From Dehalobacterium formicoaceticum (GTDB lineage Bacteria; Bacillota; Dehalobacteriia; Dehalobacteriales; Dehalobacteriaceae), in assembly GCF_002224645.1 (NCBI RefSeq), contig NZ_CP022121.1:2176501-2240500 (forward strand): 64,000 nt of DNA, in the 5' to 3' direction. Made by a program: the position numbers and the translations under genes. Under the pieces are notes generated by a model that was not told where the DNA came from, did not search any database, and saw only the letters and a list, made by a program, of their open reading frames with translations. Positions 9,539 to 18,698 of the stretch are shown here, piece by piece (position 1 is the stretch's first letter; every line of letters begins with the position of its first letter).

Positions 9539-10465
9539 TTATAACCCTTGGATTTCTTGTTCTAGAATTTTGATATAAATTGCTCCTAAATCGCTTAAGG
9601 TATGTTCACTACGCAAAATATAACCGGCGTATAAAATTTGATTATTATCTGAAAGTTTAATAGCCTGTATTTCACTTAATTTTGAATGCATCTCGTCACC
9701 ATTACTATTTGTTAAATCAGGGCCAATACTAAAACAATTACTCCATCTTACCAATGCTATTTTAGTACAACGATCGATAACATGGATGTTTTTATCAAGA
9801 ATTTCTTTAAAGATAATTTCTTCAGAGAAATGGAGGAGATTATCATCACCTTGGCCGTAAGTTACAAAGGGATACCCTTTAAGGTCTTCCATAGTTAGTG
9901 CATCCATGGAAGCTAAGGGATGTTCCTTTCTGACAAAAACATAATTTTCAATTTCTCCTAAAGGATAAAAAATGAGACTACTGGTATTTAATATCTTTTT
10001 CATAGTATTTAAATAATTTTCGTTAAGACATAGAACACCTATCTCACTTCTTCTGGTTGTCACATCATGAATGACTTCGTGGGTTGGACATTCACGAATG
10101 GCAATATCATATCGATCAAGTCCAATCTTATCAATAATTTTAATAAAAGCTTTGGTTGCAAAAGGTAGCCGCTGTGTAGAAACTGAAAAACGCATGGGAA
10201 GAGACTTTTTATGCTGATAGCGTCTTTCTAAATATTCAGCTTGTTCTACAATATCCTTGGCATGACTGATATAATCCCGGCCCTCATATGTTAACTCAAC
10301 ACCTCTGCTATTTCTTTTGAATAAAACAATACCCAGGCTTTGTTCCACTTCTTTAATAGCTGTTGATAAAGTGGATTGAGAAATAAAAAGGGATTTTGCA
10401 GCAGCAGAGATAGACTGATGCTTTGAAATTTCAATCATATATCTCATATTTTGTAACGATATCAT
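9539..10465 (-). CDS. LysR-family transcriptional regulator
   Basis: This is a complete 308-residue LysR protein. The N-terminal winged HTH (residues 1-60) has SISAAAKSLFISQSTLSTAI followed by KEVEQSLGIVLFKRNSRG. A linker helix (~60-90) precedes the two-lobed effector-binding domain (~92-300). The ATG at 10465 has an AAGGAAG ribosome site. Before the IS1634-type element inserted, this gene was divergent from the riboswitch-controlled nitrogenase-like operon, so it may once have shared that control region. Its effector is unknown. Confidence 0.9.
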   Translation of the reverse strand: MISLQNMRYMIEISKHQSISAAAKSLFISQSTLSTAIKEVEQSLGIVLFKRNSRGVELTYEGRDYISHAKDIVEQAEYLERRYQHKKSLPMRFSVSTQRLPFATKAFIKIIDKIGLDRYDIAIRECPTHEVIHDVTTRRSEIGVLCLNENYLNTMKKILNTSSLIFYPLGEIENYVFVRKEHPLASMDALTMEDLKGYPFVTYGQGDDNLLHFSEEIIFKEILDKNIHVIDRCTKIALVRWSNCFSIGPDLTNSNGDEMHSKLSEIQAIKLSDNNQILYAGYILRSEHTLSDLGAIYIKILEQEIQGL

Positions 10466-10665: not shown

Positions 10666-12525
10666 CTAGTTTAATAATTTTTTAATTTTCCCGTTTAATT
10701 CCTTTGGTCTATAATGAAGCCTATCCAGATTAAGTGATGTTAATTCCATTAATGTATCAAGGGCCTTGCTACCATGATAGAGTGCCATGTATTCAATATC
10801 GTGTACGTTGGTGACATTCATATTTTTAAGTGTAGTAATTAGGTTTTCTGGAGTTATATGAGTATGTTGTTCGTCCAATTTAGCCTCTAATAGGCGATAT
10901 ACCAATAGGGCTGTAAAACAGATCATGAAGTGGGCCTTGATACGATTAGGCAATCTGTGATTTATAGGCCTCCCGGTGAAATTGGTTTTCATAATTCTGA
11001 AACACTCTTCAATCTGATATCTTTTGTGTGATATTGCGAGAATATCTTGAGCACGATCTTCGAGATTAGTCGCCACTGCATAATAGCCATCGTATTTTTC
11101 TTCCTCAGCAATTTTCTCCTCGTCCAGGACATAATTAATAACTGCCTTTTCACCAGATTTTGTATGAGAGATTCTTTTCATGAATCTTTTTACATCATTC
11201 GGTCCCTTCTTAATTTCTTCAGGATCCTTTCTAGCTAATAGTTTTTTTGCCCGCTCTATCTGGCTTCTCCGTACTGATCTTTGATACTCCATCATTTTTC
11301 GTGAAAATCTTATGATTAAGCGTTGCCTTAAAAGTCCGGTCGATTTCCTAGACTTAACACTACCATTTTTTAATGTTATTTCTTCGCTTAAACCAATGTC
11401 AAGGGCTTTGTCAGCAAAAATTACTTTGTAAGCAAAATCGTTATACAAAGGTAAATTTTCTTTTGAGTACTGATCAAAGGTTGTCATTTTTTTGATTGTG
11501 ACAGGGGAGTCGTTTGACAATAAATGATAGTCATAGTCATTAAAAACTGCCTCCTTAAGAGTATTGCTTAATTTTTTAATTGATTGAGTGACAATAAAAG
11601 CCCTGCCACCCATGCTATTAAATTTACGGATGCTATAAGAACCAAGTCCCGCATCGGCACAATAAATAAATTTGGCTCCATTCAGCATCTTTAAGACTTC
11701 TTTTTCCAGGGGGATGGCAGTAGTTTGTTCACTTGTGTTCCCGGGATGCAGGGACATGGTGATGGGAATACCTTGGCTATCCATGAAAAGCCCCATCTCC
11801 ACAATCGGATTAGGGCGATGCTCCTTACTTATCCCGAATTTTCTTAAGCCACAAATAACTTCCCCTGTAACTTCATCAACAATATCCTCGTCAGGTTGTT
11901 CGCATTCACAATAGAAGTTTGTGCAATCATAGTAGATAATAGAAGAATCTCTTTTGACGACAGCATTACTGTTTTTATAAAGCCATGTTAAGTAAACGTC
12001 ATAATGCTCCTCTAAAATATCCATAAACCGAAGAATATGCTGGTAATCAAATTCTGGCTGCTCATAATATGAATTCAAATCATTCCAGGTGGAAAGTTTA
12101 GAACCGGGTTTTAGTATTCTAGCGTACGTTAGGAAACGGAGGATTTTAAAACTATCATAGGTGTTCTTGCATTCTGAAATATTTTGCTTAAAAAAAGTTT
12201 TAAGATTAAGACCTTTCATAATATCTTGCAGAACAAAATAACCTATGTTCAAACAAGTGGATGCCGATGCCTCGTCTTGTGTATGCTTGACTTTCTCATT
12301 AAAATTAGCAGTTAGGTTAAATGTGACCCTGCCAACGCGGTATTCCTCGTTCATCTTTTTAATTTCTTCTCTTACGTAGGTTTCGGGGTCATCAGTTATT
12401 TTCAAGAGTTCGGAATGTTTTCCGAAATTCTTGATATTTTTGGTAGTAGTTTTTTTGCCGTTTCTTATTCCTTGCTGCGCATAATAAGTAGGATCTTTAA
12501 GCCGTTTATCATAGTATAGTTTCAA
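10666..12525 (-). CDS. IS1634-family transposase
   Basis: This 619-residue DDE transposase of the IS4/IS1634 group catalyses element movement. The N-terminus MKLYYDKRLKDPTYYAQQGI is typical of the family. The catalytic core shows IIYYDCTNFYCE (first Asp), FIYCADAGLGSYSIRKF (second Asp) and the YQIEECFRIMKTNFTGRPI signature carrying the catalytic Glu (Y-x2-R-x3-E-x6-K-like). The frame is uninterrupted, so the protein may still be active. It has low-GC codon use like its surroundings. Confidence 0.93.
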   Translation of the reverse strand: MKLYYDKRLKDPTYYAQQGIRNGKKTTTKNIKNFGKHSELLKITDDPETYVREEIKKMNEEYRVGRVTFNLTANFNEKVKHTQDEASASTCLNIGYFVLQDIMKGLNLKTFFKQNISECKNTYDSFKILRFLTYARILKPGSKLSTWNDLNSYYEQPEFDYQHILRFMDILEEHYDVYLTWLYKNSNAVVKRDSSIIYYDCTNFYCECEQPDEDIVDEVTGEVICGLRKFGISKEHRPNPIVEMGLFMDSQGIPITMSLHPGNTSEQTTAIPLEKEVLKMLNGAKFIYCADAGLGSYSIRKFNSMGGRAFIVTQSIKKLSNTLKEAVFNDYDYHLLSNDSPVTIKKMTTFDQYSKENLPLYNDFAYKVIFADKALDIGLSEEITLKNGSVKSRKSTGLLRQRLIIRFSRKMMEYQRSVRRSQIERAKKLLARKDPEEIKKGPNDVKRFMKRISHTKSGEKAVINYVLDEEKIAEEEKYDGYYAVATNLEDRAQDILAISHKRYQIEECFRIMKTNFTGRPINHRLPNRIKAHFMICFTALLVYRLLEAKLDEQHTHITPENLITTLKNMNVTNVHDIEYMALYHGSKALDTLMELTSLNLDRLHYRPKELNGKIKKLLN

Positions 12526-12658: not shown

Positions 12659-12729
12659 TCAAATAAACTAATAGCTAGCAATTGAAATTCAAGAAGATTA
12701 ACCGATTGTTTTAATGAAACTTCTATGAT
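12659..12729 (+). repeat. 71-bp direct repeat, right copy, flanking the IS1634-type element
   Basis: Near-identical copy of 10499-10569. It carries the -35 region of the likely riboswitch promoter, so the duplication rebuilt the promoter downstream of the insertion. Confidence 0.9.
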
Positions 12730-12734
12730 ATACT
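12706..12734 (+). promoter_or_regulatory. Probable sigma-A promoter of the riboswitch operon
   Basis: TTGTTT (12706-12711) and TATACT (12729-12734) are separated by 17 bases, just upstream of the cobalamin aptamer. The -35 box lies within the 71-bp repeat. The first base of the -10 box is the last base of the repeat, so the promoter survived IS insertion. Confidence 0.55.
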
Positions 12735-12752
12735 GGCATCAATTGAATAATT

Positions 12753-12902
12753 CGAAATGTTGCAAGGAAATCGGTTAAAATCCGATGCGGTAACGCCACT
12801 GTAAGAGTGAGCCTCTATAAGATGTTTCAACACTGGAAAGAATCTTTCTGGGAAGTTGTTATAGATGGCAATGAACTTGAGCCAGGATACTACTACATTT
12901 CG
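12753..12902 (+). ncRNA. Cobalamin (B12) riboswitch aptamer
   Basis: The conserved core is clear: the GGTTAAAATCCGATGCGGT segment, the CGCCACTGT box, a later AACACTGG, TGGGAAG, and the closing GAGCCAGGATAC. An 8-bp P1 stem closes it (CGAAATGT at 12753-12760 with ACATTTCG at 12895-12902). The family binds adenosylcobalamin or related corrinoids and normally lowers expression when they are abundant. It leads the operon for the NifH-like protein and ABC importer, so these genes should be induced when corrinoid is scarce. A terminator follows. Confidence 0.9.
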
Positions 12903-12950
12903 TTATTACCGAACTTAACGGATTATTAGGTGAGGTCTTTATTTTTTTAT

Positions 12951-12985
12951 AAACTCTTCTGTTAATTGTTCAGGAGAGTTTTTTT
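12951..12985 (+). terminator. Riboswitch expression-platform terminator
   Basis: An 11-bp stem with one mismatch (AAACTCTTCTG / CAGGAGAGTTT) is followed by a run of T, 33 bases before the first gene. Its position between aptamer and start codon fits transcription attenuation by the cobalamin riboswitch. Confidence 0.75.
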
Positions 12986-13017
12986 GATTTGATGGCTATC
13001 ATGAAAGGGATGATGAA

Positions 13018-13863
13018 TTGAAGAGACCGATTAAAATTGCTTTTTATGGAAAAGGAGGAATAGGAAAATCCACAATTGCAAGCAATATAGCAGCTGCAAT
13101 GGGTTCACTTGGATTAAAGGTTTTATTTATTGGCTGTGATCCTAAAAGTGATTCTGTTAAAAATATTGTTGGAGGAAAAATCAAGTCGATGCTTCATTTG
13201 ATCTTGGAAAAGGGAGATTTCTTAGCTGAGGAGGATTTTTTGGAAAAAGGTTTTTTAAATATATCTTGTATTGAAACAGGCGGCCCTTCTCCTGGGGTTG
13301 GCTGTGCCGGCCGGGGGATCATAACCGTGATGGAAGAACTGGAGAAACATAATATCTTTGATAAAGATTGGGATGTGATTATTTATGATGTTTTAGGCGA
13401 TGTGGTCTGTGGGGGATTTGCAGTACCCATGCGAGAAGGATATGTAGATCGTGTCTTGCTGGTATCTTCCAGTGAATATATGTCCATCTACGCGGCAAAC
13501 AATATTTTAAAAAGTATTGAGGTGTTTTCTGATCAAAAGGAACCCTTCTTAGGTGGAATCATCCATAATCAGCGAAATGATAACGCTATGGGGGGATTGG
13601 TTAGGGATTTTTCAGAAAAAGTGAAAGTACCCATTATCTCAGAAATTCCTTTTGCTAAGGAGATTATATTTAGTGAATTGGATTATAAAACAGTTATTGA
13701 AAAATATCCGGATTCAGCTATAGCAAGCAGATTTATCGAAACATCGAAAACTATTATGGCAGGGATTACAGGGGTAATCCCCAAACCACTGGAAGAGGGG
13801 GAGTTGGAACAATTATCCAAAGAATATCTTTCGTTGATTGTAGATGAGGGGCAGCTATGTTAG
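13018..13863 (+). CDS. NifH/BchL-like [4Fe-4S] ATPase reductase
   Basis: This 281-residue protein is related to the nitrogenase iron protein, which couples ATP hydrolysis to one-electron transfer to a component-1 partner. It has the P-loop YGKGGIGKST (residues 10-19), the switch motif GCDPKSDS and both 4Fe-4S cysteines: C96 in GVGCAGRG and C131 in GDVVCGGF, matching NifH Cys97 and Cys132. The start is a TTG at 13018 behind AAAGGGATGATGAA. It is the first gene after the cobalamin riboswitch and overlaps the next gene by 7 bases. The absence of nifDKEN-type partners argues against nitrogen fixation. A redox role on a tetrapyrrole or other small substrate is inference. Confidence 0.9.
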   Translation: MKRPIKIAFYGKGGIGKSTIASNIAAAMGSLGLKVLFIGCDPKSDSVKNIVGGKIKSMLHLILEKGDFLAEEDFLEKGFLNISCIETGGPSPGVGCAGRGIITVMEELEKHNIFDKDWDVIIYDVLGDVVCGGFAVPMREGYVDRVLLVSSSEYMSIYAANNILKSIEVFSDQKEPFLGGIIHNQRNDNAMGGLVRDFSEKVKVPIISEIPFAKEIIFSELDYKTVIEKYPDSAIASRFIETSKTIMAGITGVIPKPLEEGELEQLSKEYLSLIVDEGQLC

Positions 13864-14303
13864 AAAAAACCTTAGTTCAGAAGGATAGTTTTAATGAACT
13901 GATTGAATTAGCATTGAGTAAGAAAGGTATCTATGTGTTGTCCATCGGTCCTCCCGGTTGTTTAAGGGTTCTCTTTTTTAGAGCAATGAGAGCTGAACTA
14001 TTAGAGCAGTATTTTTCATTTGCAATAAAACCCATCGATGTAATATCAGCTTCCTATGAAGATCGGCTTATTGAGCATATTTCCAAGATGATATCCGAAA
14101 AGAGGGAGATGCGAGGTCTGATTCTCTACCTGTCTTGCTCTGAAATACTGACGGGAATGAAGTTTGAAAAAACCCAAAGAACGCTATGGGAGAAATATAA
14201 TATGCCGGTATATGTTTTTAAGAGAGGACCTTTTGCAAAAAGAACAGGAGCGCCTAGGGAGAAAATGAAGGAGTTGATTTCTAAAATCAATGAATATCTA
14301 TGA
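13857..14303 (+). CDS. Miniature nitrogenase component-1-like protein (148 aa)
   Basis: This short protein resembles only the first domain of NifD/NifK-type component-1 subunits. SIGPPGCLRVL places C35 where NifD/NifK carry a P-cluster cysteine (GPxGC). After DVISASYEDRLIEHISKMI, the stretch LILYLSCSEILTG puts C94 at the place of the second cysteine (the STCPTxLIGDD-like site). The rest of a normal ~450-residue subunit is missing. The frame is clean and overlaps both neighbours (7 bases with the NifH-like gene, 14 with the NifD-like gene). It is therefore a maintained small subunit rather than a remnant. The homology is read by motif and needs a profile search. Confidence 0.7.
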   Translation: MLEKTLVQKDSFNELIELALSKKGIYVLSIGPPGCLRVLFFRAMRAELLEQYFSFAIKPIDVISASYEDRLIEHISKMISEKREMRGLILYLSCSEILTGMKFEKTQRTLWEKYNMPVYVFKRGPFAKRTGAPREKMKELISKINEYL

Positions 14304-15492
14304 TCGATACTTACCGCAACTTGTGAGTGATTATTCCGGCTTACATTCATTGTTATACCATCTGCCAACTTCGATAATCTTATTGTCTCCCAGTGGATGC
14401 AATCAGCCAATCAGAGAAGTGGATGAATATCGAGACTTTTCCAACACCAATCAATATACGACAAAACTTGACGACGCCCAAGTCACTCTTGGTATTGAAG
14501 GGATTATCAATGAAAAGTTATTATCCAATATGGAGCGGGATGTGGAATTTATTGCAGTCATGGGAACAGCCATCACAGATATCATCGGGACAGACCTTGG
14601 GGTGGTATCCCAAAAAATCGAGTCAATTTCAGGAAAACCGGTAGTATTTTTTAATACCAATGGATTTAAAGCCTATCCTAAAGCTATTGCACAGGCGTAT
14701 TTGCAAATTTTACCCTTTATTGTGGAAAAGGATCCGTCCGGAGATAAGAAAAAAGTCAATTTAATTGGTTTTCATCCGCTAGTCCATGGTTCTGATAAAT
14801 TTTTAGTACAATTTTTGGATACTTTTCACCATGATCAAATTGAATTTTGTTTGCCCGGCTTTGATTGTTTTGGGAAAGCCCATGCAAAATTATCAAAATC
14901 CGCTTACATATCCATTATCTTATCAGAGGAAGGGGTGAAACTGGGAGAAAAATTAAAAGAGGCAGATGGAGTTCCCTATGAAAAATTGTTGCCCATCTCG
15001 AAATCAGGGATGAAAGATCTGATTCGAGTTTTAGAAGAATATACGGGTGAAACATATCCGGAGATGGATCAAGAGGAAGACTATTATTTTAAAAAGCAGG
15101 GAAATGCAAAAAAAGTTTTGATCATAGGAGAGCCATTTTTTGCGGCATTTTTGCGAAAAGCGCTGCAAAAGGATTTTGGACTGGATGAGGTACAGATTTT
15201 GTCTTTGTTACCTAAAGAAAACTTTTCAAAGGACAAATTAAGTGAAGCACTTTATGAGGATATCTTTTTTGATACTCATGAAGATAAATTTTTGGGCAGG
15301 ATCCAGGCAGCAGATCTGATTATTGGTGATCCCCTATTAAGAGAGACGATTCCACAAATTAGTGAGAAGACTTTTATTGAGATACCCTATTTTGGTTTAA
15401 GTGGAAGAGAGTATGCTAAAATCCCTTATGACTATATAGGCATCAAAGGGTTTGAATATTTTAAACGACAATTAATAATAACGGGGAGATAA
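14290..15492 (+). CDS. Nitrogenase component-1-like protein (NifD/CfbD-like, 400 aa)
   Basis: This is a divergent component-1 protein with the three Rossmann-like domains expected of the nitrogenase superfamily. C37 in LLSPSGCNQPI corresponds to the NifD Cys88 / NifK Cys95 type ligand. The TTKLDDAQVTLG stretch matches the segment before the next ligand, but that ligand position reads VMGTAITDIIGTDLG and has no cysteine. The FeMo-cofactor cysteine and histidine are not recognisable. It is translationally coupled (14-base overlap) to the 148-residue gene and ends 4 bases before the importer lipoprotein. Together the two proteins supply three cysteines, which may ligate a shared cluster (inference). 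Confidence 0.8.
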   Translation: MNIYDRYLPQLVSDYSGLHSLLYHLPTSIILLSPSGCNQPIREVDEYRDFSNTNQYTTKLDDAQVTLGIEGIINEKLLSNMERDVEFIAVMGTAITDIIGTDLGVVSQKIESISGKPVVFFNTNGFKAYPKAIAQAYLQILPFIVEKDPSGDKKKVNLIGFHPLVHGSDKFLVQFLDTFHHDQIEFCLPGFDCFGKAHAKLSKSAYISIILSEEGVKLGEKLKEADGVPYEKLLPISKSGMKDLIRVLEEYTGETYPEMDQEEDYYFKKQGNAKKVLIIGEPFFAAFLRKALQKDFGLDEVQILSLLPKENFSKDKLSEALYEDIFFDTHEDKFLGRIQAADLIIGDPLLRETIPQISEKTFIEIPYFGLSGREYAKIPYDYIGIKGFEYFKRQLIITGR

Positions 15493-15495
15493 AAA

Positions 15496-16602
15496 ATGAA
15501 AAGATATAAGCAAATACTATTAGTATTAATGGCTTTGGCTTTATTAATTACAGGATGTGCCCAAAATAATGACAACTCGGATCAAGGAACAGAACCGGAG
15601 GGACAAGCAGATGGTCAAGGAGGATTTAAAACAGTGGTTGATATGTTAGGGCGGGAAGTTGAAGTGAGGAATGAAATCAACTCAATGGTTGTAACCCCTG
15701 TTCCATATGGTTCCATCATCTATGCCATTGACGGCACAATGGAAAAAATAGTGGCCGTTAATCCTGATGTTAAAAGCGAATATGAAAAATCTCTGCTGAG
15801 CACATTAGCTCCGGAATTTGCAGATGTTTCGGTTGATTATGTTTCCACAGATTTTACCATTAATGTGGAAGCACTGCTGAATCTAAAGCCGGAAGTTGTC
15901 GTTCTTTGGCACGTTCAAGAAGATGATATCAGAAAATTAGAACAAGTGAATATACCGGCAGTTGCTCTTGATCAAGGCGGAGGTTCCAATCTTGAAAAGA
16001 CGAGAGATAATATCGAAATCATAGGAAAACTATTGAATAAAGAACAACAAGCGGAAAATTTAAATCAATATAATATTGATGTGGAAGATTATTTTACAGC
16101 TAAACAAGATCAAATTGCCGAAAATGAAAAACCAAAAGTTTTATATATCAGAGATAAGAACTTAGCGGTTGCAGCCGGCGAAAGCTTCAATAGACAGCTG
16201 ATCGAATTAACCGGAGGTATTAACGTAGCAGCAGGGGTCAAGGGTTCTTGGACTGGGGTTTCTATGGAGGAAGTGCTCAATTGGAATCCGGAGATTATCT
16301 ATTTAAGCAATTTTGATAGTTTTCAACCGGAAGACCTATATAATAATACCATTGAAGGACAGGATTGGAGTCAAATAGATGCAGTGAAAAATAAAAGAGT
16401 GTATAAAACACCGGTAGGAATCATTAGATGGGACGCTCCATGTGTGGAAACACCTTTATTTATGAAATGGCTGGGCCAAATACAGCAGCCGGAATTATTC
16501 AATGATTATGTACTGGATGAAGATATTAGGAATTTTTATAAGGAATTTTTCAGTTATGATTTAACAGAGCAGGAATTAAATAAAATGCTAAATAGATCAT
16601 AA
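15496..16602 (+). CDS. ABC importer substrate-binding lipoprotein (BtuF/FecB-like)
   Basis: This 368-residue lipoprotein has a signal peptide with lipobox LITGC (C21) and an acidic Gln/Asn-rich linker. The periplasmic-binding fold of the metal-chelate/B12 family follows, with VVDMLGREVEV near the start and a KPEVVVLW region. The family binds siderophores, haem, cobalamin or other metal chelates outside the cell. It begins 4 bases after the NifD-like gene and lies under the cobalamin riboswitch, so a corrinoid or related tetrapyrrole is the most likely ligand. The sequence alone cannot choose among chelates. Confidence 0.88.
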   Translation: MKRYKQILLVLMALALLITGCAQNNDNSDQGTEPEGQADGQGGFKTVVDMLGREVEVRNEINSMVVTPVPYGSIIYAIDGTMEKIVAVNPDVKSEYEKSLLSTLAPEFADVSVDYVSTDFTINVEALLNLKPEVVVLWHVQEDDIRKLEQVNIPAVALDQGGGSNLEKTRDNIEIIGKLLNKEQQAENLNQYNIDVEDYFTAKQDQIAENEKPKVLYIRDKNLAVAAGESFNRQLIELTGGINVAAGVKGSWTGVSMEEVLNWNPEIIYLSNFDSFQPEDLYNNTIEGQDWSQIDAVKNKRVYKTPVGIIRWDAPCVETPLFMKWLGQIQQPELFNDYVLDEDIRNFYKEFFSYDLTEQELNKMLNRS

Positions 16603-16613
16603 GAGTGGTGTCT

Positions 16614-17627
16614 ATGAAGATAAATAATGAATATAGAAATGTTTTTATTGTAATTATCATCGTATTCATTGCCGGTATTATTATTTCCCTGAGTGTAGGA
16701 AGATATGCCGTTTCTTTTTCAGAGGTCGTAAGGATTCTGATATCCTTTATCTTTCAAACAGAAGGTACCCAGGATTTGGTGGCAGAAGGGGTTGTTTTAA
16801 ACTTAAGATTACCTCGAGTGTTAGGGGCAATTTTAGTAGGCAGTTCTTTAGCCATATCGGGGGCTTGTTATCAAGGAGTTTTTAAAAACCAACTGGTATC
16901 CCCCGATATATTGGGGGTATCCTCGGGAGCGACTGTAGGAGCTGCTATTGCTATTCTCTTAGGCGGAGATCGATTTATGATTCAGATAGGAGCTTTTTTG
17001 GGTGGGATTGCTGCGGTGCTATTAACAATGATGATACCAAAGCTTTTAAAGAATACTTCCACGATGCTGCTGGTATTGTCCGGCATTATTGTGGGCGGAC
17101 TGATGGGATCCATCATTGGTATTATTAAATTTTTAGCAGATCCGGATGAACAGCTGGCGGAAATTGTCTATTGGCAAATGGGGAGTCTGGCTAAGGTTAA
17201 TCTGCCTGATGTTCTTGGTATTTTGCCGATTGTCGTGATTGCTACTGTGATCCTTCTCTCCTTATCATGGCGGATCAATATTTTAACATTAGGGGATCAA
17301 GAGGCTCAATTATCGGGCGTCAATGTAAAGATGATTCGTTCTATTGTAATCATCTGTGCTACCATGTTGACTGCTTCTTCAGTCAGCATCAGCGGAACTA
17401 TTGGTTGGTTGGGATTGGTTATCCCCCATCTGGCAAGGATTTTGATTGGCCCGGATAATGTCAAGGTTTTTCCAATATCTTTGCTGTTGGGTTCAATCTT
17501 TCTGGTTACCATTGATACCTTGGCCAGGGTATTAACTACGGCAGAATTACCATTGAGTATTTTAACAGGTTTGATCGGGGCACCATTTTATTTCTGGATA
17601 CTTTCCAGGCAAAGAGTGAGGTTATAG
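16614..17627 (+). CDS. FecCD/BtuC-type ABC permease
   Basis: This ~337-residue membrane protein has about ten hydrophobic helices. It carries FecCD-family signatures: LRLPRVLGAILVGSSLAISG near residues 60-80, NQLVSPDILGVSSGATVGA, and GTIGWLGLVIPHLARILIGP near the C-terminus. It forms the membrane channel with the following ATPase. The frame could start at GTG 16605 or 16608, but the ATG at 16614 follows a GGTG-containing ribosome site and gives the usual short basic N-terminus. It lies 11 bases after the lipoprotein gene. Confidence 0.9.
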   Translation: MKINNEYRNVFIVIIIVFIAGIIISLSVGRYAVSFSEVVRILISFIFQTEGTQDLVAEGVVLNLRLPRVLGAILVGSSLAISGACYQGVFKNQLVSPDILGVSSGATVGAAIAILLGGDRFMIQIGAFLGGIAAVLLTMMIPKLLKNTSTMLLVLSGIIVGGLMGSIIGIIKFLADPDEQLAEIVYWQMGSLAKVNLPDVLGILPIVVIATVILLSLSWRINILTLGDQEAQLSGVNVKMIRSIVIICATMLTASSVSISGTIGWLGLVIPHLARILIGPDNVKVFPISLLLGSIFLVTIDTLARVLTTAELPLSILTGLIGAPFYFWILSRQRVRL

Positions 17628-17629
17628 CG

Positions 17630-18403
17630 ATGATACTTAAGGTAGAGAATCTATCATATTATTATGATAAGAGTAAAATAATATTTAAAAATGCAAATTT
17701 TTCATTGCATAAGGGAGATATATTGACCATTCTTGGGCCAAATGGCGCAGGAAAATCCACGATGCTGAATTGTCTGACCAACGTATTAAAGCCAAAAAGC
17801 GGACAAATATTAATTGAAGGTCAGAATATTGCAAATATGAATTTCAATGAAATTGCAAGAAAGATTGGATATGTTCCCCAGATACATATCCCCACCTTTG
17901 GTTTTACGGTAACGGAATTTGTGACTATGGGATTAGCGCCAAAGGTTGGCCTTTTTGCAAAGCCAACGAGAAAAGATATCCTCATTGCTGAAGAGATAAT
18001 GGACAAGATGGAGATATATCATTTGAGGAATAAGCCCTATACCCAAATCAGCGGAGGAGAGAGGCAAAAGGCAACCATTGCCAAGGTGCTGGTGCAGGAT
18101 CCTAAAATAATTATTTTAGATGAGCCAACAGCACATCTTGATTTCGGTAATCAACATAAAACGGTGGGGCTGGTGCGAGATTTGGCAAAGGAGGGATACA
18201 CCGTCATCATGACAACCCATCAACCCAATCATGCGATCATGTTAGATAGCCACACAGCTATTATTAATAGCCAAGGGAAGTTTTTATTTGGTAAAACACG
18301 GGATATTGTTTCCGAAGGGATTTTATCTAATATGTACGGAATGGCAATAAAGATGCCCTATGTAGATGAAATTCAACAAAGAATTGTGTGTGCCACCGGA
18401 TAG
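17630..18403 (+). CDS. FecE/BtuD-type ABC ATP-binding protein
   Basis: This 257-residue ATPase powers the importer. It has Walker A GPNGAGKST (residues 36-44), the Q-loop GYVPQIH, the ABC signature ISGGERQKATIAKVL, Walker B IIILDEPTAHLD and the H-loop TTHQPNH. It begins 3 bases after the permease stop and is the last gene of the riboswitch operon. The C-terminus is of the length usual for FecE-like proteins. No terminator is obvious within the next 40 bases. Confidence 0.93.
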   Translation: MILKVENLSYYYDKSKIIFKNANFSLHKGDILTILGPNGAGKSTMLNCLTNVLKPKSGQILIEGQNIANMNFNEIARKIGYVPQIHIPTFGFTVTEFVTMGLAPKVGLFAKPTRKDILIAEEIMDKMEIYHLRNKPYTQISGGERQKATIAKVLVQDPKIIILDEPTAHLDFGNQHKTVGLVRDLAKEGYTVIMTTHQPNHAIMLDSHTAIINSQGKFLFGKTRDIVSEGILSNMYGMAIKMPYVDEIQQRIVCATG

Positions 18404-18443: not shown

Positions 18444-18698
18444 CTACCGATACTGTACATATTCCATAAATCGTTGTACAGCTAATGATGCAGATTTTTT
18501 ATCTCTCAAAGCAAGGCCAATATTCCTGTATGCCGGCACATCCAACTCTTTTTGTACGATACGGTAAGGCGCACGCTTCAGAATCAACTGCGGCAGGATA
18601 CTTATCCCAAGTCCGCTTTCGACCATGGACATGATGGCGTAATTTGACCGACTATCTTCAAGCGGGGACAACAAGTAAAGACATCCATGCAAGAGCAA
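18444..18698 (-). pseudogene. LysR-family regulator, C-terminal remnant
   Basis: The frame encodes only the last third of a LysR effector domain: SNYAIMSMVESGLGISILPQ, then LILKRAPYRIVQKEL and a typical C-terminus. No HTH region is found upstream on the minus strand, where a gene for a flavin/PNPOx-type protein follows instead. A nested stem-loop at 18682-18718 marks the breakpoint. This is a truncated, presumably dead gene. Confidence 0.7.

Follow-up and report, generated by a model that had tools for sequence, protein, structure and literature searches.

The DNA of Dehalobacterium formicoaceticum analysed here, a 64-kb window at contig positions 2,176,501-2,240,500 of a single contig of 3,766,545 bases, contains an operon in which a nitrogenase-like reductase and an ATP-binding cassette (ABC) importer are encoded together behind a cobalamin riboswitch. 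The operon may serve the cobalamin-repressed uptake and reductive handling of a cobalt- or corrinoid-type chelate by a minimal nitrogenase-like complex, a tentative explanation to which we give slightly less than an even chance. The evidence counted in its favour comprises the riboswitch of the window and its recurrence before the operons of four other genomes (G126, G391, G643 and G635), a clade of seven H proteins that stand beside the importer, a clade of binding proteins mirroring that of the D and K proteins (DK), a corrinoid-domain homologue in the operon of a relative (L079), three invariant cysteines, and the likeness of the structural models to BchN and BchB.

The six genes, H, D148, K and those of the lipoprotein, permease and ATPase, are tightly packed, overlapping by 7 and 14 bases at the first two junctions and separated by 3, 2 and 2 bases at the others. 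The features are as follows (aa, amino acids):

12740..12914, + strand: cobalamin riboswitch aptamer RF00174 (cmscan 61.5 bits, E 8.7e-13, model 1-189 complete)
12951..12981, + strand: intrinsic terminator hairpin, 11-pair stem, 9-nt loop and T-run (minimum free energy and centroid folds)
13018..13863, + strand: H, NifH-like Fe protein of 281 aa, TTG start with AAGGG upstream (Fer4_NifH 281.5 bits)
13857..14303, + strand: D148, NifD-like domain I only, 148 aa, with cluster ligands C35 and C94 (alignments, model)
14290..15492, + strand: K, NifK-like component-1 protein of 400 aa, three domains, C37 conserved (Oxidored_nitro 80 bits)
15496..16602, + strand: substrate-binding lipoprotein, lipobox LITGC (Peripla_BP_2 80.7 bits)
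16605..17627, + strand: permease of the FecCD/BtuC class (Pfam FecCD 277 bits)
17630..18403, + strand: ABC ATPase of the importer (Pfam ABC_tran 117 bits)

A first-pass annotation of this DNA had described a cobalamin aptamer and terminator before the operon, a NifH-like reductase with both 4Fe-4S cysteines, a full importer of the BtuFCD/FecBCD class and gene junctions of only a few bases, all of which were confirmed. The two component-1-like proteins that it named are of the right kind, with the correction that the first, D148, comprises only one of the three domains.

The aptamer, scored against an Rfam gathering cut-off of 31.5 bits, is full-length, lies on the strand of the operon 104 bases 5' of H and is the sole Rfam match within the window; it is the weakest among the 11 cobalamin riboswitches of the genome. 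The terminator is placed between the aptamer and H. It was overlooked by a pattern scan whose loop limit was 8, against a loop of 9 nt, and the z-score of its stretch is only -1.5. Positions of the riboswitch in two of the four further genomes are:

L045 11918-12108: cobalamin riboswitch of G126
L064 14437-14615: cobalamin riboswitch of G391

We estimate that roughly one operon in a thousand would have a same-strand cobalamin riboswitch just upstream by chance, assuming about ten such riboswitches per genome.

The H protein retains the P-loop and C96/C131, and all nucleotide and cluster motifs are present. It falls under every curated NCBIfam cut-off: the best model is CfbC (312.9 bits, cut-off 402), followed by the NifH model TIGR01287 (308.5 bits, cut-off 394.35), BchL (199 bits, cut-off 345) and BchX (165 bits, cut-off 331), so that H was assigned neither to nitrogenase nor to CfbCD or DPOR/COR. 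Since the genome scan with the K alignment was too divergent to use, H was used as the query in its place. The tree showed H in a clade of seven (support 100/99) together with the proteins of G126, L079, G785, G708, G643 and G635, separate from NifH of C. pasteurianum, from MarH (9fmg), from L072 and L092, which are proteins above the CfbC cut-off, and from a sister HDK family of 22 rows. The sub-cut-off scores and the separate clade exclude H as a member of CfbC, MarH or NifH. The same importer adjoins H in all seven operons of the clade. The two checks proposed in the first-pass annotation, a phylogeny of H and a search of gene neighbourhoods, did not refute its proposal, the latter showing an importer-reductase pairing conserved in other genomes.

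The importer is of type II (BtuCD/FecCD fold), as the lipoprotein, permease and ATPase, encoded by adjacent genes, exceed the Pfam cut-offs of Peripla_BP_2, FecCD and ABC_tran. It resembles BtuFCD in its class, in the permease, for which BtuC is the best NCBIfam model, and in its control by a cobalamin riboswitch. Unlike in BtuFCD, both permease (212 bits, cut-off 461) and lipoprotein (46.8 bits against the BtuF model, cut-off 234) remain below the cut-offs, and the binding protein is distant from BtuF. The lipoprotein is 48% identical to PDB 4ovk, with MolA next and, at 27% identity, the nearest characterised binding protein. The binding proteins of DK operons form one clade of 12 rows with PDB 4ovk (support 96/94) that mirrors the DK clade and in which certain aromatic and arginine residues do not vary (RWDAP motif); it nests with the binding proteins of most sister-family operons (23 DK-linked rows, 96/98), and both MolA and the riboswitch-controlled binding protein encoded elsewhere in the genome lie outside the DK-linked clade. 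Judged by this grouping in the tree, the importer is dedicated to the DK system and is not a chance neighbour. MolBCA, the molybdate/tungstate importer of Haemophilus influenzae, shares the type II class; it differs in the low identity of its binding protein, in the position of MolA and in having no reductase partner.

The other ten cobalamin riboswitches of the genome were found, by sequence reading, before genes for CbiM/CbiQ/CbiO-like cobalt transport, for cobalamin synthesis and for a second importer of the same class, which is followed by a tetrapyrrole methylase. Given these transport genes and another riboswitch-controlled importer, a substrate of its own is expected for the operon in the window. 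It is also unlikely to encode a plain B12 importer, because the BtuC and BtuF cut-offs were missed and the genome already has the second importer. The genome of 3.77 Mb (PMC5597755) is reported to encode nearly all of cobalamin synthesis, along with numerous corrinoid methyltransferases.

No Pfam match above the cut-off was obtained for D148. In alignments it corresponds to domain I of NifD-like proteins, in which C35, R37 and C94 are invariant, and the length of D varies from 416 aa (G643/G635) over 273 aa (G126) to 148 aa in the window. About ten genomes, among them L079, L062, L064 and the Selenomonas-like genomes, encode the D domain and K as a single fusion protein of some 550 aa. Intact fusion and invariant cysteines rule out D148 as a frameshifted remnant; from the alignments, it is the smallest D subunit among those found here and consists of a single domain. 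The fused DK gene in f156 is broken mid-K, and in L225 and L228 it is split mid-K with other operon genes between the two halves.

In each of the 12 aligned D-K pairs D keeps two cysteines and K one, three in total, and D148 has no domains II-III, which in NifD are the location of the cofactor pocket. The [4Fe-4S] cluster of DPOR is held by three cysteines and one aspartate, and a P-cluster requires six cysteines; since three suffice for a cluster of the DPOR type, D148-K likely carries a DPOR-like [4Fe-4S] site and not a P-cluster or FeMoco. Of the AlphaFold models, which are of moderate confidence (pLDDT 77 for D and 70 for K), that of D148 has BchN domain I as its best match, and that of K resembles the whole nitrogenase component-1 family, with the highest listed TM-score (0.73) to a BchB chain of DPOR. 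The likeness to DPOR (BchLNB/ChlLNB) thus comprises an Fe protein with two component-1 proteins, a predicted [4Fe-4S]-type ligand set at the D/K interface and the modelled folds; the differences are that D is cut to domain I and that the operon is tied to an importer and a riboswitch and not to pigment genes. CfbCD is likewise nitrogenase-like, minimal and tetrapyrrole-linked, with CfbC the top NCBIfam model for H, but both H and K (13.3 bits against the CfbD model, cut-off 268.4) are below the cut-offs and H is outside the CfbC groups in the tree. To our knowledge no importer belongs to Cfb.

With MarHDK the operon shares the arrangement of a group IV nitrogenase-like HDK operon, and MarH is the nearest solved Fe protein to H. 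A sulfur-compound reductase of the Mar/Isr kind might be supposed on these grounds; however, H is outside the MarH clade, the operon has no NifB-like or radical SAM partner, the three conserved cysteines of DK contrast with the six of a P-cluster, and the importer class and the riboswitch do not fit. This explanation, already disfavoured, is regarded as extremely improbable. The methylthio-alkane reductase Mar contains nitrogenase metalloclusters (PMC12552129).

In the uptake and reduction mechanism that we favour, scarcity of cobalamin would cause the riboswitch to permit transcription, and lipoprotein, permease and ATPase would import the chelate, for which a corrinoid or another cobalt chelate is the likeliest candidate. 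In the cell D148 and K would assemble into a minimal complex of the nitrogenase type, its [4Fe-4S] cluster bound by two cysteines of D and one of K. Where present, H would supply electrons to DK with expenditure of ATP, and DK would reduce the chelate at its metal or ring, rendering cobalt or the corrinoid usable. The first-pass annotation had likewise suggested reductive processing or salvage of an imported corrinoid or other tetrapyrrole. This proposal finds partial support: the pairing of importer and reductase is conserved, H stands apart from the CfbC, MarH and NifH clades, the riboswitch recurs and one relative has the corrinoid-domain homologue, and a corrinoid or tetrapyrrole is a candidate substrate.

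The operon of L079, a Lachnospiraceae relative, includes a gene for a protein of 233 aa. In its C-terminal half this protein is similar to the large subunit of the corrinoid iron-sulfur protein (PDB 9fzy and 2h9a, E about 1e-17), the part matched being the corrinoid-binding domain. The L079 protein, together with the probable specialisation of D. formicoaceticum in corrinoid methyltransferases, could point to a reductive activator in the manner of RACE/RamA, which would bring the cob(II)alamin of corrinoid proteins to the cob(I) state. The constant partner is nevertheless the importer, and not methyltransferases or corrinoid proteins, and cobalamin repression would not be needed, so that we consider an activator very improbable.

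Several observations weigh against chelate uptake and reduction directed to cobalt or corrinoids. The corrinoid-domain protein occurs in one locus only, which rules it out as a general operon partner. The operons of Selenomonas-like genomes and f156 have a siderophore-type TonB receptor, with BauA and FemA as the nearest solved structures, and no cobalamin riboswitch; the lipoprotein is nearer to MolA than to BtuF (E about 1e-6); and G391, a genome 99% complete, has DK and the importer under the riboswitch with no NifH anywhere. These three points also limit what the first-pass annotation proposed. Finally, the sister family is linked in some genomes to molybdenum cofactor (Moco) riboswitches and MoeA.

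Some of these findings support the main rival, a metallophore or metal-chelate reductase in which DK, with or without H, would use low-potential reduction to free iron, cobalt, molybdenum or tungsten, depending on the lineage, from an imported metallophore, and the riboswitch of this genome would only signal that cobalt or B12 is needed. TonB receptors of siderophore type inside DK operons and MolA as the nearest characterised binding protein agree with it. In G003, G377 and G415 sister HDK-importer operons lie directly behind Moco riboswitches, and the G377 operon includes MoeA; the riboswitch positions are:

L050 10320-10438, - strand: Moco riboswitch before a sister operon
L056 4708-4840, + strand: Moco riboswitch before a sister operon
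L063 7730-7862, + strand: Moco riboswitch before a sister operon

This link is weakened because the three genomes are rich in Moco riboswitches. Also in line with a metallophore reductase is L096, where a minimal D-K-H set adjoins ModABC-like genes. On the other side, no candidate Fur box before the TonB-receptor operons was better than shuffles, so that Fur control of these operons was rejected, and the four cobalamin-riboswitch lineages and the corrinoid-domain neighbour indicate cobalt or corrinoid specifically. Metallophore reduction in general is on balance judged unlikely, though more probable than any other rival.

The absence of NifH from G391, whose DK keeps all three cysteines, means that reduction by H at the cost of ATP is not a requirement in every genome. 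In the Selenomonas-like genomes the sole NifH is of another clade and sited elsewhere, one being 91% identical to NifH of Selenomonas felix. Where there is no own H, either another electron donor serves or DK acts as a carrier. The latter leads to a further alternative, in which DK would hold the imported chelate inside the cell as a cluster-bearing carrier or store, and H, if present, would load or remodel DK. The riboswitch-controlled DK of G391 and the shrinkage of D to the cluster-ligand domain are in keeping with it; a dedicated H is kept beside DK in seven genomes, with its nucleotide and cluster motifs all retained, and we regard a carrier as improbable.

Nitrogenase relatives are known for their action on dinitrogen, in tetrapyrrole biosynthesis and on sulfur compounds. 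If chelate uptake and reduction is the correct explanation, a conserved importer-coupled, cobalamin-controlled branch would extend them to nutrient acquisition, and the operon provides a concrete case in which possible corrinoid or cobalt salvage by anaerobes can be tested. It is tempting to speculate more widely, with a shade less confidence, on an importer-coupled branch of the nitrogenase superfamily in metal-cofactor nutrition, which would reductively process imported cobalt chelates with the matching cofactor riboswitch in control; included here are molybdenum or other metal chelates in sister lineages, a D that is sometimes one domain fused to K, and an Fe protein that is sometimes absent. 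Many genes of gut and sediment bacteria annotated as nitrogenase component 1 may belong to the conserved importer-coupled branch. Our literature searches revealed no paper on this operon type and no description of chelate uptake and reduction for a nitrogenase-like family; most subscription journals were outside their coverage, and an earlier description is possible.

As to distribution, the operon is absent from the close relatives of G126 and of G643. In G430 (L184 8830-10325) an intact cobalamin riboswitch is followed by a deletion that has fused the C-terminal part of DK to a truncated permease; this locus is a natural loss of the system.

Among sister-family loci, MoeA is located between K and permease in L056, and HDK cassettes with HydF nearby were found in L054, L055, L060, L229 and L052. 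The loci of the g90 genus have two such cassettes each, also with HypD, HypE and HypF, and a link of sister cassettes to hydrogenase cofactor assembly is possible. L096 2130-7741 encodes a D of 161 aa, a K of 420 aa that has glycine-rich stretches, and a NifH-like protein; by sequence reading, a MarR-like gene and the ModABC-like transporter genes come next.

The D. formicoaceticum genome contains a second nitrogenase-like pair at about 3.31 Mb (L213 3913-7402), a 736-aa NifH-NifD fusion and a 437-aa component-1 protein; its H part groups with L091 of Methanococcoides vulcani, which adjoins an importer. Two overlapping NifH fragments in short frames at about 2.602 Mb (L003/L006) represent a decayed nifH-like gene. 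At L206 3772-6385 two tandem ThiC-like open reading frames (ORFs) under a cobalamin riboswitch precede CobS- and CobT-like genes, as read from the sequence, and possibly serve anaerobic benzimidazole (Bza) synthesis.

Around the operon in the window, a transposase-like ORF of 619 aa, identified by sequence reading (10666-12525, - strand), stops some 215 bases short of the riboswitch, a LysR-type gene lies upstream (9539-10465, - strand) and a LysR remnant just downstream (18444-18698, - strand). LysR genes, with similarity at the family level only, also stand beside the DK operons of L062, L064, L181, L223, L225 and L228.

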